From: Rhodothermia bacterium
Lineage (GTDB): Bacteria; Bacteroidota; Rhodothermia; Rhodothermales; JAAAOL01
NCBI GenBank assembly: GCA_030428385.1
Contig: JAUIDY010000010.1
Coordinates: 1-64,000, forward strand
Reading direction: 5' to 3'
DNA: 64,000 nt
Each line of letters starts with the position of its first letter. Within the stretch, counting starts at the first letter, position 1. Below the pieces are notes generated by a model. It had not been told where the DNA came from. It was given only the letters and a program-made list of their open reading frames with translations, and did no database searches. Made by a program: the position numbers and the translations under genes. Positions 40,846 to 47,957 of the stretch are shown piece by piece.

Positions 40846-40970
40846 TGGAGTATGGGAGTGTGAGAGGTTGGGGATGTGGGAGTAGGAGAGTCTGGGAGAA
40901 ATAGCGCATTGTGTTGGTTTTTCTTTTCTCCACGCCCCCTCTCCCCCTTTCGCCTACTCTCCCTTCCCTA
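40846..40970. repeat. Heptamer-like low-complexity tracts (purine then pyrimidine)
   Basis: A purine-rich tract at about 40846-40900 with units such as GTATGGGA, GTGTGAGA and TGTGGGA, followed by a pyrimidine-rich tract at about 40921-40970 with CCCCCTCTCCC and CTACTCTCCC. On opposite strands both read as degenerate CTCCCAC-type units of about seven bases. Similar tracts occur near 45975-46050 and 58600-58675. Confidence 0.6.
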
Positions 40971-43532
40971 CCGGTTCCATTTCTCCAGAATGCGACGAAG
41001 CAGAACCCCTATGGGTGTTGGGGTGGCGCCCTGCTGCACATTGGCAGCGGCAATCTCGAAGGCGTAACGCCACTGCGAACGCAGCACCCGGTACGCCTCC
41101 CACACACTGTTTTTGGGGTCGTAGATGTGGGTGGCTTCGGAGGCGACGCCGTTTAGCTCCACAATTTTGAAGTTCTGGCCCTGTTGAAAATCATCCACCG
41201 AGGGCGTGCGGATATCGTAGCGTCCGAAGAAGAATCCATCCACGGTCTGACTGATTCGGTCGATGGCATCGGTAAGAGCCGGGGTCACCAGATGCCCGCC
41301 GTCGAGAAAAATCGCGCCGCGTGCGTGGGTGCCGAGTTCAACCAGTTGCACCGTCTCACCCTCCGGAAGCACTTCATACCGCCGCCCTGCCTGCACATGC
41401 AGGTACCAGTCGGCCATACACACCGCCCGGGGGTCGTCCAGAATCAGCCGCTCCAACGTGTGAACGCCATCGCCCGTCAGGACGGGCATCCGCTTTTCCG
41501 TTACGGAAAAAATGTGACCTTTGTCCTCGTCGGGGTGACGGATATAAAAAACGCCAAACTCGTGCCCGGGCGCATACGCCTGCACAATCACCACGCCTGT
41601 TTCGTGCTCAAAATATGTCCGTACGTCCTCAACCGAACGCGCCACCACCACCCCCGCCCCGCGCTCGCCGATGTCGGGTTTGAGCACCACCGGGTAGTCC
41701 AGTTGGTGTTGGCTCATGAATTGGTGCACCGCTTCCACCCGTTCTGCCTCCGTCTCCTTTGGTGGAATGATGGCAAACTGCGCCAGGAAGTCGCCCGCTC
41801 CGTTCAGGCTTTGCAAGATGGCGGCCTTCGACTCGCCCACAAAACCGCCGTATTCGATGCCGGGGTTGACGGCGGTGAACAGCGTCAGCGAGCGGTGGCG
41901 TAGCATCAGGTACGCGAGGTAGATCAGCACCGGCGGATAAAACAGCCATGGCGGCCAGAACTCCCAGTGCCGCAGGCGCTTCCACCGACCGATCAGGCGG
42001 CGGCGGCCCGCGTGGCTAAAGAGCGGCACTACCAACTTGAGCAGCAACCAGAGGGCCAGAATCAGCCCGAGCAACGCCCACAATGCATACCGTTCAAATG
42101 TCTCGAACAGGTCGAAGGCAGCCTCGCCTAAAAACATGGAGATACCCACGAGGAAGGGCGTCCACAACAGCGCAGCGATTAGGAAATAACCAGCAAACAC
42201 GCGCAACTTCATCCCCAGCGCCCCCGCGCCTACGTACGTGGGCAGCCGGGTGCCCGGAATGACACGGCTCAGCAGAACAACCACGGGACCGCGTTGCTTT
42301 AGCCACACGCTGGCATCCTCCACCTTTTCCTCCGAGATGATCCACGACAGCGGTTTGCGACGCAGCGCTGGTTTGCCCACCCATCGCCCGATAAAAAACA
42401 AGCCGATGTCGCCCACAAAAATGCCTAAGAAAGCGCCCGCCGTTGCCGCCACAAACCCCAATGTACCATTGGCCACCAACAGCCCGGCCCCGATACACGC
42501 AAGGTCTTCACTCGCGAAGGTGGCCAGGGCCAGCAACAGCATCAGCACCACCACGGCCATCCCGGTCACCCGGCGCCCTTCGATGGAGGGCGGCACGGCA
42601 GCGGCCTCCACCCGCTCGGGCGAAGCGTCGGCACGGTGAAGAGCCGCTCCGTTTTCGACGCGCGCCACGAACGTTGCCAGGGGATCCACCAGCACGCTGG
42701 GTTCCAGAAACACGACCCCATGACCATGCTCCTCCAACGTGACCAACTCGCTCTGCGGAACGATGCGGGCATGTTCTTCGGCGGCGGCGTACGGGACCAG
42801 TTCGTCGTCCCGGCTGTGCAGGATCAGCATGGGCGGCTCGAAGCGATTCAGGATGTCGCGCAGGGGCCGCTGGTCCGTGTCGTAGAAGTTGCGGGCGTAG
42901 GGGACGCTTAAGATGGCGTCGTCGAGCCAGCCAAAATGGGGCGTGGCTTCATGAAGGAGCCACAACGCGGTGAGTTGTGCTCCATGGATGGCATGGTTGA
43001 GGTGGTAGTTGCCCAGCAGTTCCAGTTCTTGCACGCCGATGCCGGCCAGCATCACCACCGAGGCCACCCGGTTGGGGGCCTGATTATACACTTCCAGCGC
43101 CACCCCGCTGCCCATGCTGTATCCCACCAGATGCACCTGCCCAATATCCAGCGTCTCCAGCCAAGCCACCACATACTGCGCATGGGCCGCGACAGAATAA
43201 TCGGGAACGGAGTGCCCCGAGCCGCCAAAACCAGGAAGATCGGGAATGAGGAGGCGCAAGGAATCGGGCAGCGCGTGCGCCAGATCCATCATCGACGATG
43301 AAGCAACGGGGCTGCCGTGCAACAGCACAACCACAGGACCATCGGTGGCTCCCACTTCGGCATAGGAAAAGGGAACTCCTTCTTCCTCCATGTCCCCCAC
43401 TACGGGGAGTGAAAGCGTGTGCTGATCAGGACGTGGGAAGTGATCGGGAGCGTTGCGCCGGACAAGGTGCGACGCCATCAGCAACGCCACGTAGGCTCCC
43501 AGCCATACCCATCGCCAGCGTATCCGTCGCAT
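40968..43532 (-). CDS. Three-part fusion: alpha/beta hydrolase - DedA (VTT) membrane domain - ATP-grasp ligase
   Basis: An 854-residue membrane protein. Residues about 1-25 are a membrane anchor. Residues 50-295 are an alpha/beta hydrolase with LHGSP, nucleophile S139 in GYSMGSG, acid in SRDDELVP and base in EEHGHGVVF. Residues about 325-505 are a DedA/VTT domain (several hydrophobic helices, FIGRWVGKPALRRK, LSRVIPGTRLPTYVGAG). Residues about 525-830 are an ATP-grasp domain with a hydrophobic lead-in (EFWPPWLFYPPVLIY), K618 in VVLKPDIGERGAGV, and FGRYDIR and VELNGVASEATHIYDP for metal and nucleotide. Each part exists as a separate family; the function of the combination is unknown. DinB lies 21 bases upstream. 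Confidence 0.88.
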   Translation of the reverse strand: MRRIRWRWVWLGAYVALLMASHLVRRNAPDHFPRPDQHTLSLPVVGDMEEEGVPFSYAEVGATDGPVVVLLHGSPVASSSMMDLAHALPDSLRLLIPDLPGFGGSGHSVPDYSVAAHAQYVVAWLETLDIGQVHLVGYSMGSGVALEVYNQAPNRVASVVMLAGIGVQELELLGNYHLNHAIHGAQLTALWLLHEATPHFGWLDDAILSVPYARNFYDTDQRPLRDILNRFEPPMLILHSRDDELVPYAAAEEHARIVPQSELVTLEEHGHGVVFLEPSVLVDPLATFVARVENGAALHRADASPERVEAAAVPPSIEGRRVTGMAVVVLMLLLALATFASEDLACIGAGLLVANGTLGFVAATAGAFLGIFVGDIGLFFIGRWVGKPALRRKPLSWIISEEKVEDASVWLKQRGPVVVLLSRVIPGTRLPTYVGAGALGMKLRVFAGYFLIAALLWTPFLVGISMFLGEAAFDLFETFERYALWALLGLILALWLLLKLVVPLFSHAGRRRLIGRWKRLRHWEFWPPWLFYPPVLIYLAYLMLRHRSLTLFTAVNPGIEYGGFVGESKAAILQSLNGAGDFLAQFAIIPPKETEAERVEAVHQFMSQHQLDYPVVLKPDIGERGAGVVVARSVEDVRTYFEHETGVVIVQAYAPGHEFGVFYIRHPDEDKGHIFSVTEKRMPVLTGDGVHTLERLILDDPRAVCMADWYLHVQAGRRYEVLPEGETVQLVELGTHARGAIFLDGGHLVTPALTDAIDRISQTVDGFFFGRYDIRTPSVDDFQQGQNFKIVELNGVASEATHIYDPKNSVWEAYRVLRSQWRYAFEIAAANVQQGATPTPIGVLLRRILEKWNR

Positions 43533-45104: not shown

Positions 45105-45923
45105 TTAATGCATGCGGGTAAACTGCAACGCGGAGCGGCGTTGCATAAGTTGATGTTCAGCAATCTGATGAAACGTATCTGGCTCGGCGCGGAGCACCAG
45201 CAGGTCTCCGTGGCGTTCTACATCACCTGTTATTTCAACCGGGACGGCAATCAGGTCGAGGATTTCCTGATTGATACTGCGTCCATCGGTGCCTTGGAGC
45301 AGAAAATACGCCGCGCGTCCTTCGGCATCACGCACCGCCAATACGGGCGGAATGCCCCCACTGATGCACCGCGTCGCACAAGCTTTGTGGATTTTTAAGT
45401 TGCCGGGGTTCATCACGCCGAAAAAACACTTGCTATCGACGATTTCACCGACGAGCGTGTGCGTTCCCAGGCTTACGTTTTGCATGGACGGAGCGCCACA
45501 CGACGCATCCAGCACCGCCACCGTCCCCGGCACCACCTCGATCATGGTCTGGTTGTCGCGGTAAATCAGCGTGCCGTCGAATTGTACACATTGCCCGTCC
45601 ATCCCGCCCACCGCATCGTGGGCTCCGTGTTTGCCCTGCCCGACGAGATAATACCCCGATACCGAAGCCGTCTCTCCCGGTCGCGAGACCAATAACATCG
45701 GATACGGCTCCTCGCTGATCATACCCTCAAACGTGCGCACCGCGCCGAACTCGAACACGCTCGGATAAAAGCCGTCCTGCGTGGTCACCAATACCACCGA
45801 CACCGCCAGCGCCATCCCAACCAGCAGCGGCACCCAGCGCTTTAGAAAGCGCGCATGGCGCGTCGGCGCTTGTTCCTGCCAGCCGATGTAGAGATCGTTG
45901 TTGTTATGGTCATTGGTGGTCAT
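45105..45923 (-). CDS. Membrane-anchored conserved protein of a Rieske/ferric-reductase cluster
   Basis: A 272-residue protein. A basic N-terminus and one membrane segment (RWVPLLVGMALAVSVVLVTT) anchor a periplasmic domain. The C-terminal part is highly patterned: VGEIVDSKCFFGVMNPG, then KACATRCISGGIPPVLAV, four or more cysteines and a histidine that could bind metal or a cofactor, then a small OB-like stretch. I know this only as a conserved family of unknown function found beside Rieske/ferric-reductase genes. It follows that gene here, 113 bases away. An ATG three codons upstream (45932) lies inside a hairpin repeat. Confidence 0.75.
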   Translation of the reverse strand: MTTNDHNNNDLYIGWQEQAPTRHARFLKRWVPLLVGMALAVSVVLVTTQDGFYPSVFEFGAVRTFEGMISEEPYPMLLVSRPGETASVSGYYLVGQGKHGAHDAVGGMDGQCVQFDGTLIYRDNQTMIEVVPGTVAVLDASCGAPSMQNVSLGTHTLVGEIVDSKCFFGVMNPGNLKIHKACATRCISGGIPPVLAVRDAEGRAAYFLLQGTDGRSINQEILDLIAVPVEITGDVERHGDLLVLRAEPDTFHQIAEHQLMQRRSALQFTRMH

Positions 45924-45927
45924 GGAG

Positions 45928-45954
45928 GTCATTAACGGACTGTGTCCGTGTCAT
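45928..45954. repeat. 27-bp hairpin repeat, copy 1
   Basis: Core GTCATTAACGGACTGTGTCC followed by GTGTCAT. The centre ACGGACacaGTCCGT (other strand) is a perfect six-base stem with a three-base loop. It differs by one base from copies at 54742-54768 and 58550-58576. It lies immediately upstream of the 45105-45923 gene. Confidence 0.85.
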
Positions 45955-46036: not shown

Positions 46037-47086
46037 TCACCCACTCTCCCTTGCCTTTATGAGCGACGGTTCCACACGCGTTCCTGCGGGATTCGGTGTT
46101 GCAGACACCAACACCGTCTGCCCTTCAAGTTTTGTTTGAAACGTCGGGATGCGTTCGTTAAAGGGCGGTGGCGACGCTCCCGTTTCGGGAATGTACTGAT
46201 AGCCGTGCCACGGGCAGGTGATGAAGCCATCCAACACGCATCCTTCGCCAAGTGGGCCGTTCTGGTGCTGACAGACATTAGACACCGCCGCGATTTTACC
46301 GTCGTATTTAAACACGGCCACCCGCTCTCCGGCAATAGTCACAACTTTCGCCCGTTTTTCCGGAATCTCGTCAACCAGACACACCGAGACGAAGCCTTCC
46401 TCCGGGGCTGCGTCTACCGGACGATCCCGCTTGTTCTCTCGGAATCCGGCAACCAGTTGCAGTCCGATCACCAGCACAAAGCCTACCGCCACCAGCACCG
46501 ACGGCACAACACCGGCCTGATCCTGCAACGCTCCGAGCACCACATGCGCAACGACCAGGGCATAGGCGATATACACCAGCATATGAAGCCGTTTCCATGT
46601 GGGCGCGGTGAGGTTGTGGAGCCAGAAATCGTGGCTCGTGGCCGCCATCAAAAACAGGATAAACAGGGCCAACACACCGAGTTGCTCGAAGGGAAACTGC
46701 GCGAGGCTGCTGAAATTGGTATTGCTGACAAGCAGGCTAACAAAGGGATTGACATCACCGAGTGCGTGAAACTGGATGATGGAGAAGACCGCATGTCCGA
46801 GGGCCAGCACAAACATGGTCACGCCCATGTGGCGGCGGTTGTAGAGCAGGGGCAGAAAACGGTCGTCAAGCCGCGCCAGGGGCCCGATCATCAGGATGAC
46901 GTGCAGCAGCACAAAAGCCGCCAGGGCCAACGCCCGAATGATCAACGTCTCAGCGGTGACGTTGGGAAACAGCACCGCACCCAGCCCGATGAACACCGCC
47001 AGAAACCCCACCACCCCACCGAGCAGGATGGCATCGTAGCGTTTCTTCTGGCGGTTCCACTGCACCGCTTGATAACCGACACCCAT
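46037..47086 (-). CDS. Ferric-reductase-like membrane protein fused to a Rieske 2Fe-2S domain
   Basis: A 349-residue fusion. Residues about 20-215 hold six or seven membrane helices of the ferric-reductase type with heme-ligand histidines (VLLHVILMIGP, VLALGHAVFS, WKRLHMLVYIAY, ALVVAHVVLG). Residues about 235-330 are a Rieske domain with the CxH...CxxH ligands in NVCQHQNGPLGEG and TCPWHGYQY. It would move electrons across the membrane between heme and iron-sulfur centres; the external partner is unknown, perhaps the patterned-cysteine protein encoded next. It is third in a same-strand group of four. Confidence 0.9.
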   Translation of the reverse strand: MGVGYQAVQWNRQKKRYDAILLGGVVGFLAVFIGLGAVLFPNVTAETLIIRALALAAFVLLHVILMIGPLARLDDRFLPLLYNRRHMGVTMFVLALGHAVFSIIQFHALGDVNPFVSLLVSNTNFSSLAQFPFEQLGVLALFILFLMAATSHDFWLHNLTAPTWKRLHMLVYIAYALVVAHVVLGALQDQAGVVPSVLVAVGFVLVIGLQLVAGFRENKRDRPVDAAPEEGFVSVCLVDEIPEKRAKVVTIAGERVAVFKYDGKIAAVSNVCQHQNGPLGEGCVLDGFITCPWHGYQYIPETGASPPPFNERIPTFQTKLEGQTVLVSATPNPAGTRVEPSLIKARESG

Positions 47087-47172: not shown

Positions 47173-47682
47173 CTATTCTGCTTCGATGGTCGGAGTAGGT
47201 TGCCGGGTGGTGAGCGGAGCGACATCGATAACTTCTTGACGAGCGAGACTGAACAAGATCAAAAAGCCGTCAGTGCGCAACGCCGCCTCCGGTAATGCGC
47301 CACGTACCGTCTCTGTGCCATCCAGCGACGACACCAAAAAGCTGTCGCCCGGCAACATGCCGGCGGGCTGCTGGGGCGCCCAATAGACCAGCACATCGGG
47401 AAGTTTCAGGCTCGCCTGCGGGGTCAGTTCCACAGCAAGATGCGTGGCAGGCGTAGCATCGCCGAATACCCGCGTAGTGATGGGTGCCACGGTCCAAAGA
47501 TCATCAGCCTCCAGGATTTGATGGGCGAGTGACGGTTGTGCCAACGAGACGACGGCCTCCGGCAGTTGCTCCATCACTGGAATCGGCTCGCGGGCCATCA
47601 GCCCCGCCACAAAGACCAGCGGAATTACCACGGCCAACACGGCCATCATCGCCCGATGTCGAATACGTAAGGGTCGGATCAT
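47173..47682 (-). CDS. Exported hypothetical protein of the Rieske cluster
   Basis: A 169-residue protein with an N-terminal membrane segment or signal (MMAVLAVVIPLVFVAGLMA) and a beta-rich periplasmic domain containing VLVYWAPQQPAGMLPGDSF and DGFLILFSLARQEVIDV. No catalytic motif is seen and I do not recognise the family. Its ATG overlaps the stop of the upstream small membrane protein (ATGA at 47679-47682), so the two are coupled. It is followed 86 bases later by the ferric-reductase/Rieske gene and is probably part of the same membrane redox unit. Confidence 0.8.
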   Translation of the reverse strand: MIRPLRIRHRAMMAVLAVVIPLVFVAGLMAREPIPVMEQLPEAVVSLAQPSLAHQILEADDLWTVAPITTRVFGDATPATHLAVELTPQASLKLPDVLVYWAPQQPAGMLPGDSFLVSSLDGTETVRGALPEAALRTDGFLILFSLARQEVIDVAPLTTRQPTPTIEAE

Positions 47683-47957
47683 GACGCTCCCTCCGATGAT
47701 GTGACACGGGCGGCTTCCCGATGCGGTGTACGTTCCTCTGGCGGCGTACCCGTGCCTCGCAGCACCCGGCGCAACAGCAGGGGCCACAAGGCCACCGTCC
47801 CCGGAAAAATCAAAAGCCGGAAGCCCAAGGTTGCTTCCTGGGCGCTATGGTCTACCTTCGCCACACCACGGGTCACAAAATATAAGGCAAACGCCACCCC
47901 CAGGAGCAAATACATTCCGAGAAGACGCACCAGCCAGGTAGCCACAAGCAGCGACAT
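47679..47957 (-). CDS. Small membrane protein of the Rieske cluster
   Basis: A 92-residue protein with two hydrophobic segments (LVATWLVRLLGMYLLLGVAFALYFV and LGFRLLIFPGTVALWPLL, each quoted within limits) and a charged C-terminal tail. No family is recognised. The ATG at 47957 is chosen because it begins just before the first membrane segment; a frame to 48038 adds 27 residues. Its stop overlaps the start of the next gene by four bases. It is the first gene of the four-gene redox group on this strand. Confidence 0.7.
   Translation of the reverse strand: MSLLVATWLVRLLGMYLLLGVAFALYFVTRGVAKVDHSAQEATLGFRLLIFPGTVALWPLLLRRVLRGTGTPPEERTPHREAARVTSSEGAS

Follow-up and report, generated by a model that had tools for sequence, protein, structure and literature searches.

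We asked whether a single gene of a Rhodothermia bacterium truly encodes an alpha/beta hydrolase, a DedA membrane domain and an ATP-grasp ligase in one chain, and what such a protein might do. The gene lies in the window, the 64,000-nucleotide stretch of DNA that we analysed, and runs on the minus strand from 43532 to 40968 as a single open ATG-to-stop frame of 854 codons (Table 1). An earlier note on this DNA had described an uninterrupted frame with these three domains, though not its strand, and both the open reading frame and Pfam, which places all three, bear it out. That note held that a chimera, a frameshift at the domain borders or a census in which the parts never co-occur would overturn its reading. 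Full-length homologues rule out a chimera or frameshift: seven of 60 related genomes carry one with the same architecture, at 47–54% identity (E 1e-298 to 1e-246) and with no internal stops. Homologues of the same architecture, at 37–53% identity, occur throughout the class and in about nine to ten phyla. Across 30 fusions (the window protein and 29 homologues from the all-genome scan), 16 residues are invariant, namely S139, D243, H271, E342, D343, D375, R423 and R429 in the hydrolase and DedA parts and the eight ATP-grasp residues given in Table 1; in the DedA and ATP-grasp domains the key residues show no variation across all 47 aligned fusions. The full-chain structure prediction that the note had suggested, run with AlphaFold on the alignment of the 30 fusions, gave a mean pLDDT of 88.0 and a pTM of 0.66. 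The three-domain architecture appears undescribed in the literature that we searched for ATP-grasp with DedA or with ornithine lipid, where we found no description of it.

Table 1. Coordinates of the fusion gene, its parts and its neighbours in the window
Feature	Position	Strand	Basis or remark
Triple-fusion gene, alpha/beta hydrolase + VTT/DedA + ATP-grasp, 854 aa	40968..43532	-	Frame, Pfam, homologues, AlphaFold
ATP-grasp domain (residues 551–835): K618, R624, E658, K680, R771, D773, E792, N794	41028..41882	-	Pfam, alignment, fold match
Basic loop and aromatic/proline-rich helices (residues 507–545)	41898..42014	-	Hydropathy, AlphaFold, alignment
VTT/DedA domain (residues 325–504); loop 1 E342/D343, loop 2 R423/P426/R429, both re-entrant	42021..42560	-	Pfam, alignment, AlphaFold; fold PMC7818093
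Alpha/beta hydrolase domain (residues 50–293), Ser139/Asp243/His271	42654..43385	-	Pfam, alignment, fold match
N-terminal hydrophobic helix (residues 2–27), probable membrane anchor	43452..43529	-	Hydropathy; helix pLDDT about 90
DinB-like gene, 175 aa	43554..44081	-	Ends 21 bases ahead of fusion start
OlsB-like N-acyltransferase, 295 aa, PF13444	44276..45163	-	Best NCBIfam OlsB NF052555, E 9e-39
N3, 275 aa, family without a name, Cys-rich motif	45105..45932	-	Same cluster in several phyla
N2, ferric-reductase-like membrane domain and Rieske [2Fe-2S] in one protein	46037..47086	-	Same cluster in several phyla
N18, small protein of no known family, upstream cluster member	47173..47787	-	112 bits

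Each of the three parts could be assigned to a superfamily. Pfam matches residues 66–164 to Abhydrolase_1 (PF00561; E 1e-24, 88 bits against a cut-off of 25.8), and the fold together with the Ser-acid-His triad places this part among the alpha/beta hydrolases, with esterases and the lipase ABHD6 as nearest folds. The fusion has the fold, the triad and an N-terminal hydrophobic helix in common with these enzymes but differs from them in that its hydrolase sits in a larger protein and in that the catalytic serine is gone in one lineage. Residues 349–464 match VTT_dom (PF09335; E 2e-17, 64 bits against 33.9), and the invariant E342, D343, R423, P426 and R429 together with a fitting helix pattern identify a DedA/VTT domain, which falls outside UptA (NF052604, 53.8 bits against a cut-off of 250). 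As at E39, R130 and R136 of YqjA (PMC7818093), loop 1 of the fusion is acidic and loop 2 holds two arginines six residues apart, whereas the position of YqjA D51 is apparently non-acidic (GAGLL); unlike in the translocases YqjA and UptA, the VTT domain is joined to two enzymes. Residues 582–653 match RimK ATP-grasp (E 5.5e-5, 23.3 bits against 21), and K618, K680, D773, E792 and N794, invariant in 47 fusions, place the C-terminal part in the ATP-grasp superfamily. Of the residues picked out in the earlier note, Ser139, His271, Lys618 and the VELNGVASE motif (791–799, containing E792 and N794) stand, and the acid is Asp243 instead of 242.

The ATP-grasp part, modelled alone, reached a pLDDT of 90.7 and a pTM of 0.88. 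Its nearest solved folds are cyanophycin synthetase (Foldseek E 3e-12), GshAB, Ddl and LysX, all of them amino-acid ligases. The first three are closest by both profile and fold, at 10–22% identity among the structures listed, and differ from the fusion's ligase, which is membrane-tethered and has other partner domains. Cyanophycin synthetase itself was rejected as an assignment, with 39.4 bits against an equivalog cut-off of 850 over residues 582–697 only. In public plasmid records two ATP-grasps of the family (L184:6926-8038 and L187:7911-8996) are labelled D-alanine--D-alanine ligase; such labels on family members, for example in Salinivibrio, are probably wrong.

We then considered, from sequence and secondary structure, how the chain may lie in the membrane. 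Hydropathy places basic loops after residues 390 and 504, and the helices that AlphaFold predicts at 325–340/342–354 and 401–424/429–438 fit two re-entrant loops. A plain four-TM hydropathy reading would bring hydrolase and ligase together on one face of the membrane; we tentatively prefer the re-entrant one, because the helix breaks at 341 and 425–428 match the published DedA fold. Given the basic loops and the re-entrant DedA fold, the hydrolase would lie on the membrane side opposite the ATP-grasp, with the N-terminus of helix 2–27 probably in the cytoplasm. Residues 507–545 probably attach the ATP-grasp in-plane at the cytoplasmic face; many standalone relatives retain the E(F/Y)WP motif of this region and also keep a hydrophobic N-terminal segment.

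The domain search and architecture census proposed in the earlier note gave the three Pfam domains above and 59 triple fusions among 118 ATP-grasp rows; what the note had seen is genuine and reaches further than it had assumed. The other rows comprise 27 VTT-ATP-grasp forms, 29 ATP-grasps alone (some of them truncated by contig ends), two TANGO2-ATP-grasp forms and one hydrolase-ATP-grasp form. Within the class, 47 genomes have a strong ATP-grasp match, nearly all in frames of 810–925 codons. The scan of species genomes returned at least 560 ATP-grasp relatives, of which the best 80 were kept, and the sample is therefore biased to close relatives. Triple fusions occur in Acidobacteriota, Verrucomicrobiota, Calditrichota, Gemmatimonadota, Planctomycetota, Thermodesulfobacteriota, Myxococcota, Krumholzibacteriota and, in the wide sense, Bacteroidota, with the reservation that many sources are metagenome bins whose phylum labels may be wrong; two fusion-bearing records, CP011806.1 and CP036296.1, are chromosome-scale. 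In a tree of the ATP-grasp domain the window protein groups outside its own order, near Verrucomicrobiota and Spirochaetota sequences, in a neighbourhood nested within a larger, mostly Acidobacteriota set (support 87 to 92, none starred). Transfer of the operon is possible, since the window protein groups away from its own order.

The neighbours of the fusion recur in a conserved order, with OlsB-like, OlsA-like and DinB-like genes followed by the fusion as the last gene, often together with a bacterial TANGO2. The order OlsB-like, OlsA-like, (DinB), fusion holds in 16 to 17 of the 18 full loci of the class. Among 92 loci with at least 3.5 kb of upstream sequence, DinB is nearby in 69, with the putative metal-site histidines conserved in this DinB-like family, and OlsB or OlsF in 50, including 38 of the 50 triple fusions. 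OlsF, an enzyme built differently from OlsBA but serving the same lipid, takes their place near the fusion or the VTT-ATP-grasp form in L106, L093, L117, L123 and L147, all outside the class. Across 240 genomes of the class, 43 have both the ATP-grasp and an OlsB-like gene, 4 the ATP-grasp only, 33 OlsB only and 160 neither (Fisher 4.6e-22, which overstates independence because the class genomes are related). Co-occurrence of ATP-grasp and OlsF in Bacteroidota is moderate and confounded by ancestry (24/40 against 70/255, Fisher 9e-5), and most sampled standalone Bacteroidota copies, like those of Komagataeibacter and Azospirillum, have no Ols gene nearby. The neighbours are relatives of the Ols enzymes: the OlsB-like protein belongs to PF13444 and scores 133.6 bits against the OlsB equivalog cut-off of 320, and the OlsA-like relative (PF01553) has OlsA as its first match (E 5.5e-42), below cut-off. 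The headgroup may therefore differ from that of ornithine lipid. A partner ATP-grasp, DedA or DinB of OlsBA or OlsF systems is undescribed in the literature searched. In one further genome (G232, L070:6392-7326) only two short frames are left of the fusion, and OlsB, OlsA and DinB are all missing; this locus is a decaying operon whose genes were lost together.

Proteobacteria carry split forms of the same set. Vibrio sp. THAF191d has separate genes in the order VTT, ATP-grasp, DinB, TANGO2, DoxX and OlsF; Salinivibrio has VTT, ATP-grasp, a DinB-like hypothetical and NRDE/TANGO2; and in Variovorax OlsB adjoins the ATP-grasp. In Paracoccus denitrificans PD1222 three genes side by side encode the ATP-grasp (PDEN_RS24485), the alpha/beta hydrolase (PDEN_RS25810) and, on the opposite strand, the VTT protein (PDEN_RS24475). 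Such separate adjacent versions are as expected from a functional fusion. The Paracoccus hydrolase, whose similarity is weak (about 30 bits), has no evident signal peptide as annotated, a point in favour of a cytoplasmic location in that species.

These observations make the fusion a strong candidate for the missing machinery of amino-acid-lipid elongation and export. We give about even odds (roughly 0.5) to the main lines of the scheme, a membrane-bound aminolipid headgroup ligase and exporter, an assignment to synthesis and export that we infer from gene context. In the inner leaflet, OlsB-like and OlsA-like enzymes, or OlsF, would build an amino-acid lipid that is N-acylated and carries an acyloxyacyl group, the same N-acyl, O-acyl lipid type as expected of the known OlsBA and OlsF systems. 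Held at the membrane face, the cytoplasmic ATP-grasp would spend ATP on activating a carboxylate, most probably the lipid's own free alpha-carboxylate, and couple it to an amino acid or to an amine, for example taurine. The result would be an aminolipid of the peptide type, as cerilipin and flavolipin are, and the likeliest chemistry is an ATP-dependent amide bond formed at the carboxylate of the aminolipid. The DedA domain would bring this lipid to the outer leaflet, with protons as the probable driving force, and the periplasmic hydrolase may remove an ester-linked acyl chain or otherwise trim the lipid in lineages that keep the Ser-Asp-His triad. Known peptide-type aminolipids bear Gly-Ser (flavolipin, lipid 654; PMC10191378), Orn-taurine (cerilipin; PMC12493201, PMC4484230) or Gly-Ser-Orn (PMC8433624), and all require an amide ligation on an aminolipid carboxylate that the fusion's ligase could supply. 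For the Gly-Ser route of flavolipin the addition of the second amino acid is reported as unknown, and flavolipin-type lipids act on host Toll-like receptors (PMC10191378). A review of aminolipids mentions neither 'export' nor 'flippase'. The fusion matters because the ligases for flavolipin- and cerilipin-type lipids appear to be unknown, and the conserved ATP-grasp next to OlsBA or OlsF offers a specific candidate for the role. If the scheme is true, the partner domains would also tell what class of substrate a member of the DedA family moves.

Several other readings of the locus were weighed against this scheme. The ATP-grasp product could instead be soluble, for example a low-molecular-weight thiol or a dipeptide, with DinB, DoxX and TANGO2 serving stress or metals and the lipid link secondary. 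DinB relatives include thiol transferases, glutathione synthetase is among the fold neighbours of the ATP-grasp, and the family's clusters in Bacteroidota hold DoxX, DinB, TANGO2 and YHS proteins without Ols genes. We nevertheless consider a soluble product unlikely, given the hydrophobic N-terminal segment that even standalone ATP-grasps keep and a VTT domain fused or adjacent to the ATP-grasp in many phyla, often with OlsBA or OlsF nearby. It is also rather improbable that the hydrolase domain is an acyltransferase that supplies or replaces O-acylation, the remainder being as in the main scheme. The precedent is OlsI (Sinac_1601), an alpha/beta hydrolase that is the ornithine-lipid O-acyltransferase of planctomycetes (PMC12493201) and that we liken to the fusion by its description, and the window operon lacks an OlsA-like gene between OlsB and DinB. 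However, most fusions do have such a partner (the operon includes an OlsA-like gene for 36 of 50 triple fusions), and in the window genome one lies on contig C141, away from the fusion and beside a second OlsB-like gene (L165:6972-8577).

The earlier note had named undecaprenyl phosphate or phosphatidylethanolamine as the lipid. DedA proteins have been tied to undecaprenyl phosphate transport and UptA models do match weakly, yet the UptA score is far under its cut-off, and linkage to two kinds of aminolipid synthase recurs in many phyla. Recycling or turnover of either lipid, with the aminolipid genes as mere neighbours, is thus a poor prospect, and the lipid is probably an ornithine-lipid-type aminolipid, because OlsB/OlsA-like or OlsF genes share the cluster. 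The note's sequence of modifying, flipping and trimming a lipid agrees with one conserved unit whose domain order fits the proposed topology (PMC7818093), but trimming cannot be universal: many loci have only VTT and ATP-grasp or the ATP-grasp alone, and in a Balneolaceae-like branch of the class, so called by its inferred family, Ser139 is lost in 9/9 sampled proteins and His271 in 6/9. With the DedA and ATP-grasp sites intact there, the hydrolase of this branch appears to have turned into a pseudo-enzyme while the ligase and translocase have not. That the fusion is a scaffold whose hydrolase is a lipid-binding adaptor and not an enzyme would suit this branch, where the cap residues E169, N179 and R225 are invariant despite the lost serine, but is very improbable given that all 30 fusions of the wider alignment, among them the window protein, keep the whole triad.

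TANGO2 would link the preferred aminolipid scheme to human disease. A TANGO2 homologue (PF05742, E 1e-14) with conserved Cys2 and NRDE motif is present in 41 of the 92 well-flanked loci, and none was found in the window genome. An anti-correlation suggesting TANGO2 as a substitute for the hydrolase (Fisher 3e-4) vanished once ancestry was considered, and we do not claim it. Human TANGO2, which underlies a severe metabolic disease, has an unknown substrate that is thought to be a fatty-acid derivative (PMC13044924); since TANGO2 recurs in the operon, bacteria offer a direct test. Bacterial TANGO2 is a Cys-Ntn hydrolase, and if the scheme is true, the disease protein would gain its first defined lipid substrate class. 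The broader claim of an undescribed, widespread pathway that makes and exports peptide-type aminolipids through one fused ligase-translocase-hydrolase, commonly with bacterial TANGO2, is tentative.

Further upstream, N18, N2 and N3 form a cluster that is also found in Acidobacteriota, Gemmatimonadota and others, and N2 travels with N3 across several phyla. N3 has no Pfam match, and its Cys-rich motif is highly conserved (DsKC.lGVM.PG..k.Hr.CA.rC..GG.pp). Two Bacteroidota genomes fuse TANGO2 to the ATP-grasp (L170:5884-7674 and L171:5917-7686), which ties the TANGO2 family directly to this ligase in function. In another Bacteroidota genome (L174:6280-9175) a TANGO2 gene is flanked by two ATP-grasp genes, a pair that looks as if it served two successive ligations.
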